Assembly (NCBI GenBank): GCA_027310565.1
Contig: DAIDAP010000030.1
Span: 83,074 to 147,073 of the forward strand
Length of the DNA stretch: 64,000 nt
DNA from: Chloroflexota bacterium
GTDB taxonomy: Bacteria > Chloroflexota > Limnocylindria > P2-11E
Direction: 5' to 3'
Below the pieces are notes generated by a model. It was not told where the DNA came from. It did not search any database and saw nothing but the letters and a program-made list of their open reading frames with translations. Shown piece by piece: positions 25,236 through 32,519 of this stretch; position 1 is the stretch's first letter, and every line of letters begins with the position of its first letter. The position numbers were made by a program, and so were the translations under genes.

Positions 25236-25844
25236 CTAGGCGAGGCGCCGGATGACGCCGATGACCTTTCCCTGGATCTGTATGTCGCGGGTGTAGATCG
25301 GCTGCATGGTCCCGTTCGCCGGCTGGAGCCGGACGCGGTCCTTCTCGCGGAAGAAGCGCTTGAGGGTGGCGCGGTTGTCCTCGAGCAGCGCCACGATGAT
25401 GTCGCCGTCGCGCGCGGTGTTCTGCGACTGCACGACGACGTAGTCGCCGTCGTCGATGTGGTCCTCGATCATCGACTTGCCGCGGACGCGGAGCACGAAC
25501 GTGTCGTGCCCGCGCGCCGACAGCTCACCCGGGATGGAGAGCGTCTCGCTGCGGTCCTCGTACGCGTAGATCGGCTCGCCCGCGGCGATCTCGCCGACGA
25601 TCGGCGCCCGCACGACGCGTCCGCCGGTGGCGCCCGGGATGGTGAGCGCGCGGGAGCGCGCGGCGCCCTTCCGGAGCTTGCCCTCCCGCTCCAGCTTCAG
25701 GAGGTGGTGGTGCACCGCCGAGGTGGACGCCAGGCCGACGGCCTCCGCGATCTCGCGGACCGTCGGAGGGTAGCCTCGCTCCTCGGTCTGCTCGCGGATG
25801 AAGTCGAGGATGCGCTCGGCCCGCTGCTGGTCCTGTTTCGCCAT
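25236..25844 (-). CDS. lexA: LexA repressor
   Basis: GYPPTVREIAEAVGLASTSAVHHHLLKLEREGKL; EIAAGEP cleavage region; VRGKSMIEDHI catalytic serine. Confidence 0.97.
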   Translation of the reverse strand: MAKQDQQRAERILDFIREQTEERGYPPTVREIAEAVGLASTSAVHHHLLKLEREGKLRKGAARSRALTIPGATGGRVVRAPIVGEIAAGEPIYAYEDRSETLSIPGELSARGHDTFVLRVRGKSMIEDHIDDGDYVVVQSQNTARDGDIIVALLEDNRATLKRFFREKDRVRLQPANGTMQPIYTRDIQIQGKVIGVIRRLA

Positions 25845-25857
25845 GCTGGCACCATAC

Positions 25858-25871
25858 CGAACGGATGTTCG
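25858..25871. promoter_or_regulatory. LexA (SOS) box CGAACGGATGTTCG upstream of lexA
   Basis: Perfect CGAAC-N4-GTTCG palindrome 14 bp from the lexA start codon. Confidence 0.85.
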
Positions 25872-25924
25872 GATGTCAAGCGTCGGTACCTGCCGGGGCA
25901 GGGCGGCGGTGGCATGCTCGGCCC

Positions 25925-27077: not shown

Positions 27078-27524
27078 GTGCGCGTCATCCTGAAGCGCGA
27101 GGTCCGTGGCCTCGGCCGCCCCGGCGAGATCAGGGACGTCGCCGACGGCTACGCGCAGAACTTCCTCCTGCCCCGCGGCCTCGCGGTGGAGGCGACGGCC
27201 GGCGAGCTGAAGCACGTCGCCCGCGAGCGCGAGGCCGCCAGGGCGAAGAAGGACCGCGCCCACGAGGACGCCGAGGAGCTCGCGAAGCGTCTCGAGGCCA
27301 TCACGCTGCGCTTCCGGCTGAGGGCGGGCGAGCAGGGGAAGACCTTCGGCTCCGTCACGACGAAGGAGATCGTCGAGGTGCTGAAGACGGAGCACGGCAT
27401 CGAGATCGACAAGACGATGGTCCACCTCGAGGAGCCGCTGAAGTCCCTCGGCGCGCACACCGTGGAGATCCGCCTGCTCACCGACGTGCGCGCGAAGGTC
27501 GCCGTCGCGATCGAGCCGGCCTAG
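27078..27524 (+). CDS. rplI: 50S ribosomal protein L9
   Basis: MRVILKREVRGLGRPGEIRDVADGYAQNFLLPRGLA. Confidence 0.97.
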   Translation: MRVILKREVRGLGRPGEIRDVADGYAQNFLLPRGLAVEATAGELKHVAREREAARAKKDRAHEDAEELAKRLEAITLRFRLRAGEQGKTFGSVTTKEIVEVLKTEHGIEIDKTMVHLEEPLKSLGAHTVEIRLLTDVRAKVAVAIEPA

Positions 27525-28855
27525 ACCTCCGCCTTCGTCTCGCCGAGATCGCGGAACCGCGTCAGCTCCGACTGGAAGTGCAGGTCGAAGTCGCCCGTCG
27601 GTCCGTTGCGGTGCTTCGCCAGCTTGAGCCGCACCACGCTCTCGTCGCGGTCCTTGCGGTCCTTCTGCCAGAGGAAGAGGACGAGGTCGGCGTCGGCCTC
27701 CAGCGCGCCGCTCTCTCTCAGATCCGAGAGCATCGGCTCCGTGCCACGCATCTCGATCTGGCGCGAGAGCTGCGACAGCGCGACGACCGGGACCCGCAGC
27801 TCGCGCGCGATCGCCTTCAGCGAGCGGCTGATCGCCGCGACCTCCTGCACGCGGTTCTCGTCGTTGCCCGCGCCCTCGATGAGCTGGAGGTAGTCGATGA
27901 CCACGAGGTCGAGGCCGCGTTCGGCCTGGAGCCGCCGCGACTTCGCGAGCACGTCGGTCACCGTGAGCCGGCTCGACTCCTCGACGTAGATCGGCGCCTG
28001 CTGGAGGCGCGCCGACGCGTCGGAGATCGACACGAACTCCTGCGGCGTGAGGCGGCCGCGGCGCAGCCGGTTGCCGTCGATCTCGGTGGTCATCGAGATG
28101 AGGCGCTGCACGAGCTGCATCTCGCTCATCTCGAGCGAGAACACGGCACACGTCCGGCGCGCGACGACCGCCGCGTTCCACACGATGTTCAGGGCGAAGC
28201 TCGTCTTGCCGAGCCCGGGGCGGCCGGCGAGCAGGATGAGGTCGGACGGCTGAAGCCCGCCGGTCTTCGCGTCGAGGGTGGGGAAGCCGGTGAGCACGCC
28301 CTCGTGGTGGTCGTCGGCGCGCGCGCTGATCTGGTCGGCGAGACGCCGCAGGGCGACCTCGAGCGGGACGACGTCGCGGTGCAGGTTCGACTCGCTGATC
28401 GCGAACAGGAGCTCCTGCGCGTCCTCCACCGCGGACCTCGGGTCGTCGCGCGTGAGCGCGAGGTGCGCGACCTCGTTCGCGGCGCCGATGAGCCGCCGCA
28501 GCAGCGCGGTGCGCTCGACGATGGTCGCGTACGTCTCGGCGTGCGCGACCGTCGGCACGTTCTGCATGAGCCCGACGAGGAACTGCGCGCCGCCCACCGC
28601 GTCGAGCTCCCCCCGCGCGCCGAGCTCGGCCTGGACGCTCTGGAAGCCGAGCGCCTCGCCGCGCTCGGCGACGCGCTCGATGGCCGCGAGGACGAGGCGG
28701 TGCTGCTCGCGCGACAGCTCCGCCGCGGCGATCCGGCCCCGGACGCTCTCCTCGAAGACGTGCGGGTCGATGAGGATCGAGCCGAGGAGGCTCGCCTCGG
28801 CCTCGGGCTTCTCCGGCGGCGGCTTGGGGCCCGCCCGCCGCACGTCGACCGTCAT
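27521..28855 (-). CDS. dnaB: Replicative helicase DnaB paralog 2 (intein-free)
   Basis: LILLAGRPGLGKTSFALNI, VVIDYLQLIEG, SGALEADADLVLFLWQKD; starts in ATGA overlap with paralog 1. Confidence 0.9.
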   Translation of the reverse strand: MTVDVRRAGPKPPPEKPEAEASLLGSILIDPHVFEESVRGRIAAAELSREQHRLVLAAIERVAERGEALGFQSVQAELGARGELDAVGGAQFLVGLMQNVPTVAHAETYATIVERTALLRRLIGAANEVAHLALTRDDPRSAVEDAQELLFAISESNLHRDVVPLEVALRRLADQISARADDHHEGVLTGFPTLDAKTGGLQPSDLILLAGRPGLGKTSFALNIVWNAAVVARRTCAVFSLEMSEMQLVQRLISMTTEIDGNRLRRGRLTPQEFVSISDASARLQQAPIYVEESSRLTVTDVLAKSRRLQAERGLDLVVIDYLQLIEGAGNDENRVQEVAAISRSLKAIARELRVPVVALSQLSRQIEMRGTEPMLSDLRESGALEADADLVLFLWQKDRKDRDESVVRLKLAKHRNGPTGDFDLHFQSELTRFRDLGETKAEV

Positions 28856-31440
28856 ACCGGCGTCCCGTCGTCGCGCGCCTTGCTGAAGAAGCGCGCCTGC
28901 TCGGCGGCGAAGAGCAGGTCGAAGATCCCCGTGGGTCCGTTGCGGTTCTTCGCGACGCTGCCGTGGATGAGCCGCGGCGCGCCCGGCGGCGCGTCCTCCT
29001 TGTCCCGCCACAGCATCATCACGATGTCGCTGTCCTGCTCGAGGGCTCCGGAGTTGTGCGAGACGATCCCGTCCGCGAGCCAGCACGAAGGACCCGGCAC
29101 GGTGAGGTCGAAAACGTCTTCTTCGCCGTCCGGCAGGACGTCGAGGACCCGATCCCAGAACAGGTCGTTCGCCGACAGATCGAGGAGCACATCGTCCTCG
29201 AGCAGCCGTGCGTAGTCGAGGAGCGTCACGCGCGACGGCGCGAACTTGAAGTGCGCGGTCCCGCCGTAGGTCGTCCCGCGCAGGGCTGCCATCGCTCGAT
29301 GAGGGATGCCTCGTTCGCGCATGCGGCGCTTGACGATCTCGAAGACCTCACGTGGCACCGTGTCGACGTTCGTGTTGGCGGTGACGTCGGCGAGCGCCAT
29401 GCTGAGCTCTATCGCCGGCCGGGTCCGCGGCCCAAAGGCGCCGATCCGCTGCAGGAAGATCCGCTGGTGGTCGACACCGGAGACATGGACCTGGTACCCG
29501 GGCTTGTAGCCCTCCTCCTCCTCCTCCTCCACGCGCGCGGTGCGCGCGACGATGCCGAATCGCAGAAGCAGGGCCGAGACGTCTTCAGCGAGGCCACGGC
29601 TGTTCGTCGCGTAGGAGATGCTGCCGTCCTTGCCGTCCGCTCGCGTGCCGATCGAGCCGTCCGTCGCCCAGAGATGGCGAAGGAGGATGGCGAGGTCCGT
29701 ATCGGGCAGTCCGAACACCGCACGCGGCAGACGCTTCTGATGTGATCTCTGTCCGAAGATGCCCAGCTCCCGCAGCCACGCGTTCACGCCCGCGGGATGC
29801 CATCGATTCCCATTGCCGCTGATGAACAGCTGGTGCCAGCCGTTGATCGGTTTCTGCGGGTAGATGACCGCTCCGAACTCGGTCATCGCCGCTCGGGCGA
29901 CGATGTCGAGGTTCTCGGCCGAGCTTGACGTGTAGCGCAGTGGCTGACGGACGAGGTAACTGCCGTCACCGATCAGGTGTCCGAGAAGCGCGAGGCGGAG
30001 CTCGGGCCACGTCGTTTCGTTCGCAGGCTCAGGGAGCCGTCGCGCTATCGCCAGCCGGTCGCCCCTCGACAGGTCACGGACTCGCTTCCACTCGCCGAAC
30101 GCGTGAAGACGGTGATCGGCTGTCGCGCGGATCTGGCGCCCCGACGCAAGACGCACTCGATACACCTGCCGTCGCCCGACCCTCCAGACGAGGTCGCTCC
30201 GTGCCTTCACGAGTCGCCCCTCCTTGATGGAGAGGATGTCGGGGTGGGTGCCGACGAGCTCCCGGATCGGGACGCGGCCACCATCCGCGAGGCACACGAG
30301 CGTGTCGCCGGTCACACATTCACGGAGGGTCGAGAGCTTCGGCTCGAGGCCCGCATCGCCCGCGGCGCGCGAGAGCTGCGACAGCCCGATGACGACGACG
30401 TTGAGCTCGCGCGCGAGCGACTTGAGATTGCGGGTCACCGTCGCGATCTCCTGGACCCGGTTCTCCTCTTCGCCGCCGGTGCGCACGAGCTGGACGTAGT
30501 CGACGATGATCACCTCGAGGCGATCGTGCGTGCTCGCGCGCCGCGCCTTGGTGCGCAGCTCCATGATCGAGATGCCCGGCGTGTCGTCGATGAGGATGGG
30601 CACGCCCTGCAGCGCGCTCGCGGCCTCGGTGTCGAACACGTTGCCGGTGCGCAGGGCGAGCAGGTCGCTGCGGCTGTTCATCGCGAGGAAGCGGCTCACG
30701 ATCTGCTTGGCGTCCATCTCGAGCGAGAACACCAGCGCCGGGTGGCCGCGCTTGGCGACGTTGTACGCGATCGCGAGGCCGAGGCTCGACTTGCCGACCG
30801 AGGGGCGCGCCGCGAGCACGATGAAGTCCCCCGGCGTGAAGCCCTCGGTGAAGAAGTCGATCTCGCGGAATCCGCTCGGGATCCCGCTCACCTCGTACGG
30901 CCGGTCCACGCGCTCGGTGAGGTGCTCGAAGTTGTCCTGGAGCGCGGTCTGGATGTGCCGCAGCTGGACGTTCGCGGACTCGTCGCGCAGCGCGAAGATG
31001 CGCTGCTCGGCGCGGTCGAGGAGCAGCGGGATGTCGGTCGGCTCGCCGTAGGCGTCGGCGGCGATGGCCGTCGCGGCGCCGAGCAGCCGCCGCAGGATCG
31101 CCCGGTCCTTCACCGCGTGCGCGTTGCGCTCGATGTCCACGGCGGTGGGGACCTGCTCGACCAGCTCGCGCAGGTACGCGACCCCGCCGATGCGGTCGAG
31201 CTCCTCGCGCCGGGCGAGCTCGAGCTGCACCGTGAGCGGGTCGATGCGCTCCCGGCGCTGGAGCAGCGCGTAGATCGCGTCGTAGACGCGCTGGTGGCGG
31301 GCGACGTAGAAGTCCTCGCGCGCGACGACGTCGGCGACCTTGTAGATCGCGTCGCGGTCGATGAGCAGGCCGCCGAGCACCTGCTGCTCCGCCGCCTCGT
31401 CGTACGGCACCCGCCGGTCGGTCCGCGCCTCGACGGTCAC
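28852..31440 (-). CDS. dnaB: Replicative helicase DnaB paralog 1, intein-containing precursor (GTG start)
   Basis: IVLAARPSVGKSSLGLAI, VIIVDYVQLVRTGG; interrupted before SGALEQDSD by intein. Confidence 0.95.
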   Translation of the reverse strand: MTVEARTDRRVPYDEAAEQQVLGGLLIDRDAIYKVADVVAREDFYVARHQRVYDAIYALLQRRERIDPLTVQLELARREELDRIGGVAYLRELVEQVPTAVDIERNAHAVKDRAILRRLLGAATAIAADAYGEPTDIPLLLDRAEQRIFALRDESANVQLRHIQTALQDNFEHLTERVDRPYEVSGIPSGFREIDFFTEGFTPGDFIVLAARPSVGKSSLGLAIAYNVAKRGHPALVFSLEMDAKQIVSRFLAMNSRSDLLALRTGNVFDTEAASALQGVPILIDDTPGISIMELRTKARRASTHDRLEVIIVDYVQLVRTGGEEENRVQEIATVTRNLKSLARELNVVVIGLSQLSRAAGDAGLEPKLSTLRECVTGDTLVCLADGGRVPIRELVGTHPDILSIKEGRLVKARSDLVWRVGRRQVYRVRLASGRQIRATADHRLHAFGEWKRVRDLSRGDRLAIARRLPEPANETTWPELRLALLGHLIGDGSYLVRQPLRYTSSSAENLDIVARAAMTEFGAVIYPQKPINGWHQLFISGNGNRWHPAGVNAWLRELGIFGQRSHQKRLPRAVFGLPDTDLAILLRHLWATDGSIGTRADGKDGSISYATNSRGLAEDVSALLLRFGIVARTARVEEEEEEGYKPGYQVHVSGVDHQRIFLQRIGAFGPRTRPAIELSMALADVTANTNVDTVPREVFEIVKRRMRERGIPHRAMAALRGTTYGGTAHFKFAPSRVTLLDYARLLEDDVLLDLSANDLFWDRVLDVLPDGEEDVFDLTVPGPSCWLADGIVSHNSGALEQDSDIVMMLWRDKEDAPPGAPRLIHGSVAKNRNGPTGIFDLLFAAEQARFFSKARDDGTPV
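29053..30318 (-). mobile_element. DnaB intein (422 aa) with LAGLIDADG homing endonuclease
   Basis: N-terminus CVTGDTLVCLADGGRVPIREL, LLGHLIGDGSYL and LLRHLWATDGSIG blocks, C-terminus WLADGIVSHN followed by Ser+1. Confidence 0.93.
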
Positions 31441-31451
31441 GCGGACAAGTC

Positions 31452-31467
31452 TAGAACGCCTGTTCTA
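31452..31467. promoter_or_regulatory. LexA-like box TAGAACGCCTGTTCTA upstream of intein-containing dnaB
   Basis: Perfect 6-bp inverted repeat GAAC-N4-GTTC core, 11 bp upstream of the dnaB GTG start. Confidence 0.6.
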
Positions 31468-31566
31468 CCCATTCCAGGGAGCCCTCCCGCGCGATCTCGT
31501 GACGCGCGGAGGAAGCCCCGCGGCACGGCGAACGCTACTGTTCGGGGGCCGCGAAGGGAACCGCTC

Positions 31567-31599
31567 TCGTCCACGAACTCGTCCACCATTTCATCCACA
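31567..31599. repeat. DnaA-box-like array (12-bp spacing)
   Basis: TCGTCCACG 31567, TCGTCCACC 31579, TCATCCACA 31591. Confidence 0.5.
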
Positions 31600-31622: not shown

Positions 31623-32519
31623 TTGCGCGTGCTCGTGACCGGCGGCGCCGGATTCGTCGGCAGCAACGTCGTCGACGCGCTCGTCGCGCGCGGCGACGAG
31701 CCCGTCGCGCTCGACGACCTCTCCAGCGGCGACCGCGGCAACCTCGCGCCGGGCGTGCCGCTGCGCGTCGCCGACGTGGCCGACGAGCCGGCGCTCTTCG
31801 ACGCGGTCCGCGGCGAGGTGTTCGACGCCGTCGTCCACTGCGCCGCGAAGACGAAGGTCGTGGAGTCGATGGAGAAGGCGGCGCTCTACCGGCGCGTGAT
31901 CGTCGACGGCACGCGCGCGGTGATCCGGCTCGCGGAGGAGCGCGGCGTGCGGATGCTCGTGAACGTCTCGACCGGGGGCGCGATGTACGGCGAGACGCCG
32001 GCCTGCGCGACCGAGGCGACGCCGGCCCGCCCCGACTCGAACTACGGGCGCTTCAAGCTCGAGGCCGAGCGCCTGGTCGGCGCCGCGAGGGTGCCCGCGA
32101 TCACGCTGCGCCTCGCGAACGTGTACGGGAAGCGCCAGCGCCAGGACCTCGAGGGGGGCGTCATCGCCATCTTCCTCGGGTGCTGGCGCCGCGGCGCGCC
32201 GCTCACGGTCTTCGGCGACGGCACGGCGCAGCGCGACTACGTGCACGTCGACGACGTCGCCGCCGCGGCCCTGAGCGCCCTCGCGGGCCGCTGGCGCGGG
32301 CTCTACAACGTCGGCACGGGGATCGCGACGAGCGTGAACGAGATCGTCGCGGCGATGAGCGAGGTCCTCGGGCCGCCGGCGGGCGTGGCGCACGCGCCGC
32401 CGCGCCCGGTCGAGATCCAGCGCGCGTGCCTCGACGCGTCGAGGGCCGCGCGCGACGGACTGTGGTCGCCGGCGATCGCCCTGCGCCGCGGGCTGGAGCT
32501 CACCGCGGCCACCGCCTGA
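31623..32519 (+). CDS. NAD-dependent epimerase/dehydratase (UDP-glucose 4-epimerase-like SDR)
   Basis: MRVLVTGGAGFVGSNVVDALVARG; SNYGRFKLEAE; TTG start after AGGAGG. Confidence 0.85.
   Translation: MRVLVTGGAGFVGSNVVDALVARGDEPVALDDLSSGDRGNLAPGVPLRVADVADEPALFDAVRGEVFDAVVHCAAKTKVVESMEKAALYRRVIVDGTRAVIRLAEERGVRMLVNVSTGGAMYGETPACATEATPARPDSNYGRFKLEAERLVGAARVPAITLRLANVYGKRQRQDLEGGVIAIFLGCWRRGAPLTVFGDGTAQRDYVHVDDVAAAALSALAGRWRGLYNVGTGIATSVNEIVAAMSEVLGPPAGVAHAPPRPVEIQRACLDASRAARDGLWSPAIALRRGLELTAATA

Follow-up and report, generated by a model that had tools for sequence, protein, structure and literature searches.

The tandem replicative helicase genes dnaB1 and dnaB2 in a family of uncultured Chloroflexi, known from metagenome assemblies and represented mostly by draft genomes, very probably lie behind a true LexA operator, which, judged from the sequence, would sit inside their common promoter, repress it and release it upon DNA damage. 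The operator was recognized in a window of 64 kb, i.e., the whole stretch of DNA that was analyzed, as a 16-bp palindrome with perfect 6-bp arms (TAGAACGCCTGTTCTA) located 11 bp upstream of the GTG start codon of dnaB1 (31440, minus strand), and inspection of the sequence confirmed the position and the arms as given in the initial annotation. That annotation had also tentatively placed the tandem dnaB operon in the SOS (LexA) regulon, a proposal that is supported by the presence of the palindrome before dnaB1 throughout the family and of the same motif before lexA and mutasome-type genes. The dnaB1 gene combines the LexA motif of its lineage in the promoter, conservation among orthologues including the sister genome, and a functional-looking LexA encoded in the same genome. 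The features of the window are listed in Table 1.

Table 1. Features around the dnaB1 operator in the 64-kb window.
Feature	Position	Strand	Evidence or remark
LexA-type operator (SOS box) TAGAACGCCTGTTCTA before dnaB1	31452..31467	.	28/28 conservation
Putative -10 element TAGACT	31448..31453	-	Overlaps operator end; most relatives have a TANNNT-like hexamer at this offset
Weak putative -35 element CTGGAA, 18-bp spacer	31472..31477	-	Clear TTGACA about there in several relatives
lexA, S24 peptidase and winged-helix DNA-binding domains	25236..25844	-	TIGR00498 over cut-off; Pfam; aligned to LexA structures
LexA box of lexA promoter, CCGAACGGATGTTCGG	25857..25872	.	Conserved in 26/26 family/order lexA genes
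dnaB1, intein-interrupted replicative helicase, 862 aa	28852..31440	-	Pfam DnaB N, DnaB_C (two stretches), Intein_splicing, LAGLIDADG_3
Intein in dnaB1 (approximate), residues 376-797	29050..30315	-	Sporadic, 7/28 family members
dnaB2, second DnaB helicase	27521..28855	-	TIGR00665 DnaB over cut-off; solved-structure matches; start overlaps dnaB1 stop (ATGA)
rplI (ribosomal protein L9), convergent with dnaB2	27078..27524	+	Pfam L9 N and C domains
NAD-dependent epimerase/dehydratase gene, divergent from dnaB1, probably outside the system	31623..32519	+	PF01370

Conservation of the box upstream of orthologous dnaB genes had been set beforehand as the test on which the idea could fail, and GAAC-N4-GTTC was found directly upstream of dnaB1 in all 28 genomes of the family, where its arms have persisted while eight genera diverged. 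When these 28 genomes are aligned at the box, each of the eight arm positions is invariant (2.0 bits) and the N4 spacer varies, while no other position within 50 bp exceeds approximately 1.05 bits. In the sister family, for which a single genome is available, AGAACTAATGTTCG lies within a promoter-like stretch (TTGACC...CATGCT), approximately 120 bp upstream of dnaB1. The core motif was absent from approximately 200 bp of upstream sequence at 15 dnaB loci elsewhere in the phylum, and in the other families of the class, which have one dnaB, no box was present within 400 bp of this gene.

The surroundings of the box resemble a regulated promoter. In many genomes of the family it lies between a TTGACA-like -35 and a TANNNT -10 element, which is the geometry of the lexA promoters; one genus (G011, G015, G017, and G021) has no clear promoter elements around the dnaB1 box. 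The -35 element of the source genome is weak and to that extent counts against reading this as a LexA-controlled promoter. The putative -10 element lies 7 bp before the GTG codon of dnaB1, so that a leaderless start is possible, and dnaB2 could have a further internal promoter. Two other features were noticed between dnaB1 and the epimerase gene. One is a second palindrome, CGAAC-N6-GTTCG (31529-31544), whose spacing is unlike that of LexA sites; the other is a cluster of TCGTCCAC/TCATCCAC repeats (31567-31598) resembling DnaA boxes. Several class relatives likewise have two to four DnaA-box-like repeats in the gap between lexA and dnaB (L149-L162), with fewer than 0.1 expected. The idea of an oriC at dnaB, which such repeats might suggest, found no support from linkage, dnaA being located on other contigs or far away.

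The source genome encodes a full-length, intact LexA with Peptidase_S24 and LexA_DNA_bind domains that align to solved LexA, and the core that the initial annotation had pointed out in the lexA promoter of the window was indeed found there. The genome-wide motif scan suggested at that time was run as pattern searches, which located the core at 19 places in the 2.79-Mb genome compared to 6 for a reversed control pattern. The full motif TAGAAC-N4-GTTCTA occurs at exactly three sites, before dnaB1, before a RecA/ImuA-like gene and before a dnaE2-like gene. GAAC-N4-GTTC precedes the RecA/ImuA-like gene in 20/20 genomes, and in the source genome it is also present before the error-prone dnaE2-type polymerase gene and before uvrB. 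Both paired-box loci of this genome (L008/L009 and L011/L012) are associated with genes that are likely further members of the SOS response, with one box pair before a DNA-ligase-domain gene and another at the start of a DEAD helicase gene with an HRQ1-type winged helix. The remaining core sites, mostly within reading frames, look like background.

As controls, dnaA and recA were searched for the same motif. Among 30 dnaA regions no box was found within 300 bp, and a single chance-like match lies 312 bp away in a class relative. For recA, 22 of 23 genomes lack GAAC-N4-GTTC within 400 bp upstream (e.g., L175, recA of the source genome), the one match being 109 bp away. In this family recA therefore seems to stand outside the LexA regulon, which is atypical of an SOS regulon and was counted against the LexA reading of the dnaB1 box. 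Being boxless, recA was unusable as a positive control, and its place was taken by lexA and the RecA/ImuA-like gene. In three family genomes recA is split by an insertion of approximately 1 kb (L182, L183, and L186 from G012, G011, and G006, respectively), which is probably an intein.

Exactly two genes with a DnaB N-terminal domain are present in each of the 28 family genomes, and they are adjacent (in G005, dnaB2 runs off the contig end). A search with this domain found no DnaB gene beyond dnaB1 and dnaB2, which speaks against an additional dnaB elsewhere in the genome; since both genes form one operon, the complete supply of replicative helicase lies behind the dnaB1 operator. The ATGA overlap of the dnaB1 stop and the dnaB2 start was found in the window; of 14 genomes measured, 11 show it, and for the remaining three the aligned segment started within dnaB2. 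Both genes encode recognizable DnaB proteins with N- and C-terminal domains and intact ATPase motifs, as Walker A and Walker B are kept and the LSQLSR motif (H4) is present in nearly all rows of the alignment. In the phylogenetic tree dnaB1 and dnaB2 each form one clade that includes the sister family, indicating that the pair is older than the split of the families. The initial annotation had suggested that the box would link expression of the intein-containing helicase to DNA damage; the intein itself has no special relation to the box. Only 7 of 28 dnaB1 genes appear to be split by an intein, as judged from matches that stop where the intein is inserted, whereas all 28 have the box, and an intein-linked regulation was rejected.

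Within the window, taken by itself, the 12-bp core is only weakly significant (2 seen versus 0.71 expected, with 17 of 100 shuffles equally high), which would be compatible with a chance occurrence or with a feature of a promoter, hairpin or coding sequence that has no regulatory role. This weakness is no longer a reason for doubt because all family genomes keep the box, and the comparative data, with eight invariant arm bases beside a variable spacer and unconserved flanks, refute these readings so far that we give them practically no credence. The expected background is also low, with 0.03 occurrences of the 16-mer in the window when up to three mismatches are allowed and approximately 0.0004 boxes per 60 bp at the density found in the genome (19 in 2.79 Mb), and the dnaA and recA controls are nearly empty. 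A different palindrome-binding repressor with GAAC-N4-GTTC specificity might control dnaB1 instead of LexA, as the binding protein cannot be named from sequence alone and members of the ArsR family have been proposed as binders of SOS-box-like sites (PMC8151990). We regard this as very unlikely, because the identical motif is present in 26/26 lexA promoters and before damage-response genes. The Gram-positive type of LexA box, CGAAC-N4-GTTCG, is the LexA site of Bacillus and other Gram-positives, mycobacteria, and Dehalococcoides, and it shares the GAAC-N4-GTTC core, which further argues against another repressor; the dnaB1 operator is a box of this type.

In the favored reading, LexA, encoded approximately 4.5 kb away, would bind the box between or over the -35 and -10 elements and keep the helicase genes moderately expressed. 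Repression would have to be incomplete, because the dnaB genes are needed in undamaged cells and there is no other DnaB gene. Upon DNA damage, RecA-stimulated self-cleavage of LexA would increase the expression of dnaB1-dnaB2, and the additional DnaB may then be available to reload or restart stalled forks, a likely benefit that is at present speculative. Alternatively, the same operator could serve mainly for steady-state tuning, as a constant partial brake with negligible induction by damage. The gene dnaB is essential in known bacteria, and an essential dnaB without another DnaB gene cannot be fully repressed; furthermore, perfect arms and promoter overlap say nothing about the induction ratio. 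However, the motif and position of the dnaB1 box match those of lexA and the RecA/ImuA-like and dnaE2-like genes, which are typically inducible elsewhere, and we therefore consider mere tuning possible but rather less than probable. With the whole DnaB pair behind a perfectly conserved predicted LexA site, the amount of helicase is very probably tied to DNA damage.

The gene lexA adjoins dnaB across the class in three different arrangements (e.g., L143, L148). In the tandem-dnaB families, lexA is located 2.4-6.7 kb from the dnaB1 match and on the same strand in all 23 cases measured. In families f3 and f5 it directly precedes dnaB in the same orientation, mostly at a distance of 150-360 bp, and a LexA box precedes lexA in every locus checked. 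In family f4, lexA is divergent from DUF1232-rplI-dnaB, with a box between lexA and DUF1232. From these arrangements we infer that dnaB in f3-f5 may be under LexA control as well. Outside the class, no lexA-dnaB neighbors were found among the matches listed. The proximity of dnaB to rplI is shared by the window and f4. What distinguishes the window is that its dnaB pair runs towards rplI on the opposite strand, from a promoter of its own that contains a LexA box. A wider view would be that the whole class keeps its replicative helicase gene within or beside the reach of LexA, through an operator of its own in the tandem-dnaB families, through a position directly downstream of lexA in others, or through a position downstream of a promoter divergent from lexA. 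SOS would then generally set helicase dosage, and hexamers in which the translationally coupled DnaB1 and DnaB2 are mixed or can replace each other might be supplied in larger amounts on damage; we put this forward as an unlikely, tentative extension.

The regulon resembles those of the Gram-positive type in the operator core, the autoregulated lexA and the presence of mutasome-type genes and uvrB under the motif. It differs from them in that all DnaB genes lie behind the operator and recA is seemingly outside the regulon. The initial annotation had called an SOS link unusual for a replicative helicase, and this is only partly so. In Mycobacterium tuberculosis, dnaB is listed among the genes with a putative upstream SOS box and induction is partly due to PafBC (PMC8151990), and mycobacterial DnaB also carries inteins (PMC6195587). 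The M. tuberculosis gene is thus likewise a replicative helicase gene with a putative SOS box, so that a connection between dnaB and DNA damage has a partial precedent. In contrast to that putative box and its regulation mixed with PafBC, the box described here is perfectly conserved throughout a family and precedes a tandem dnaB. What is new is this family-wide fixation and the position of the cell's complete DnaB supply behind a predicted operator, of which we found no description in the open-licence literature.

The supply of replicative helicase is usually regarded as housekeeping. In these Chloroflexi it is encoded by two divergent DnaB paralogues, an unusual pair coupled in translation, and because every DnaB gene lies behind a conserved, probable LexA operator, the adjustment of helicase dosage during the SOS response becomes a directly testable question.
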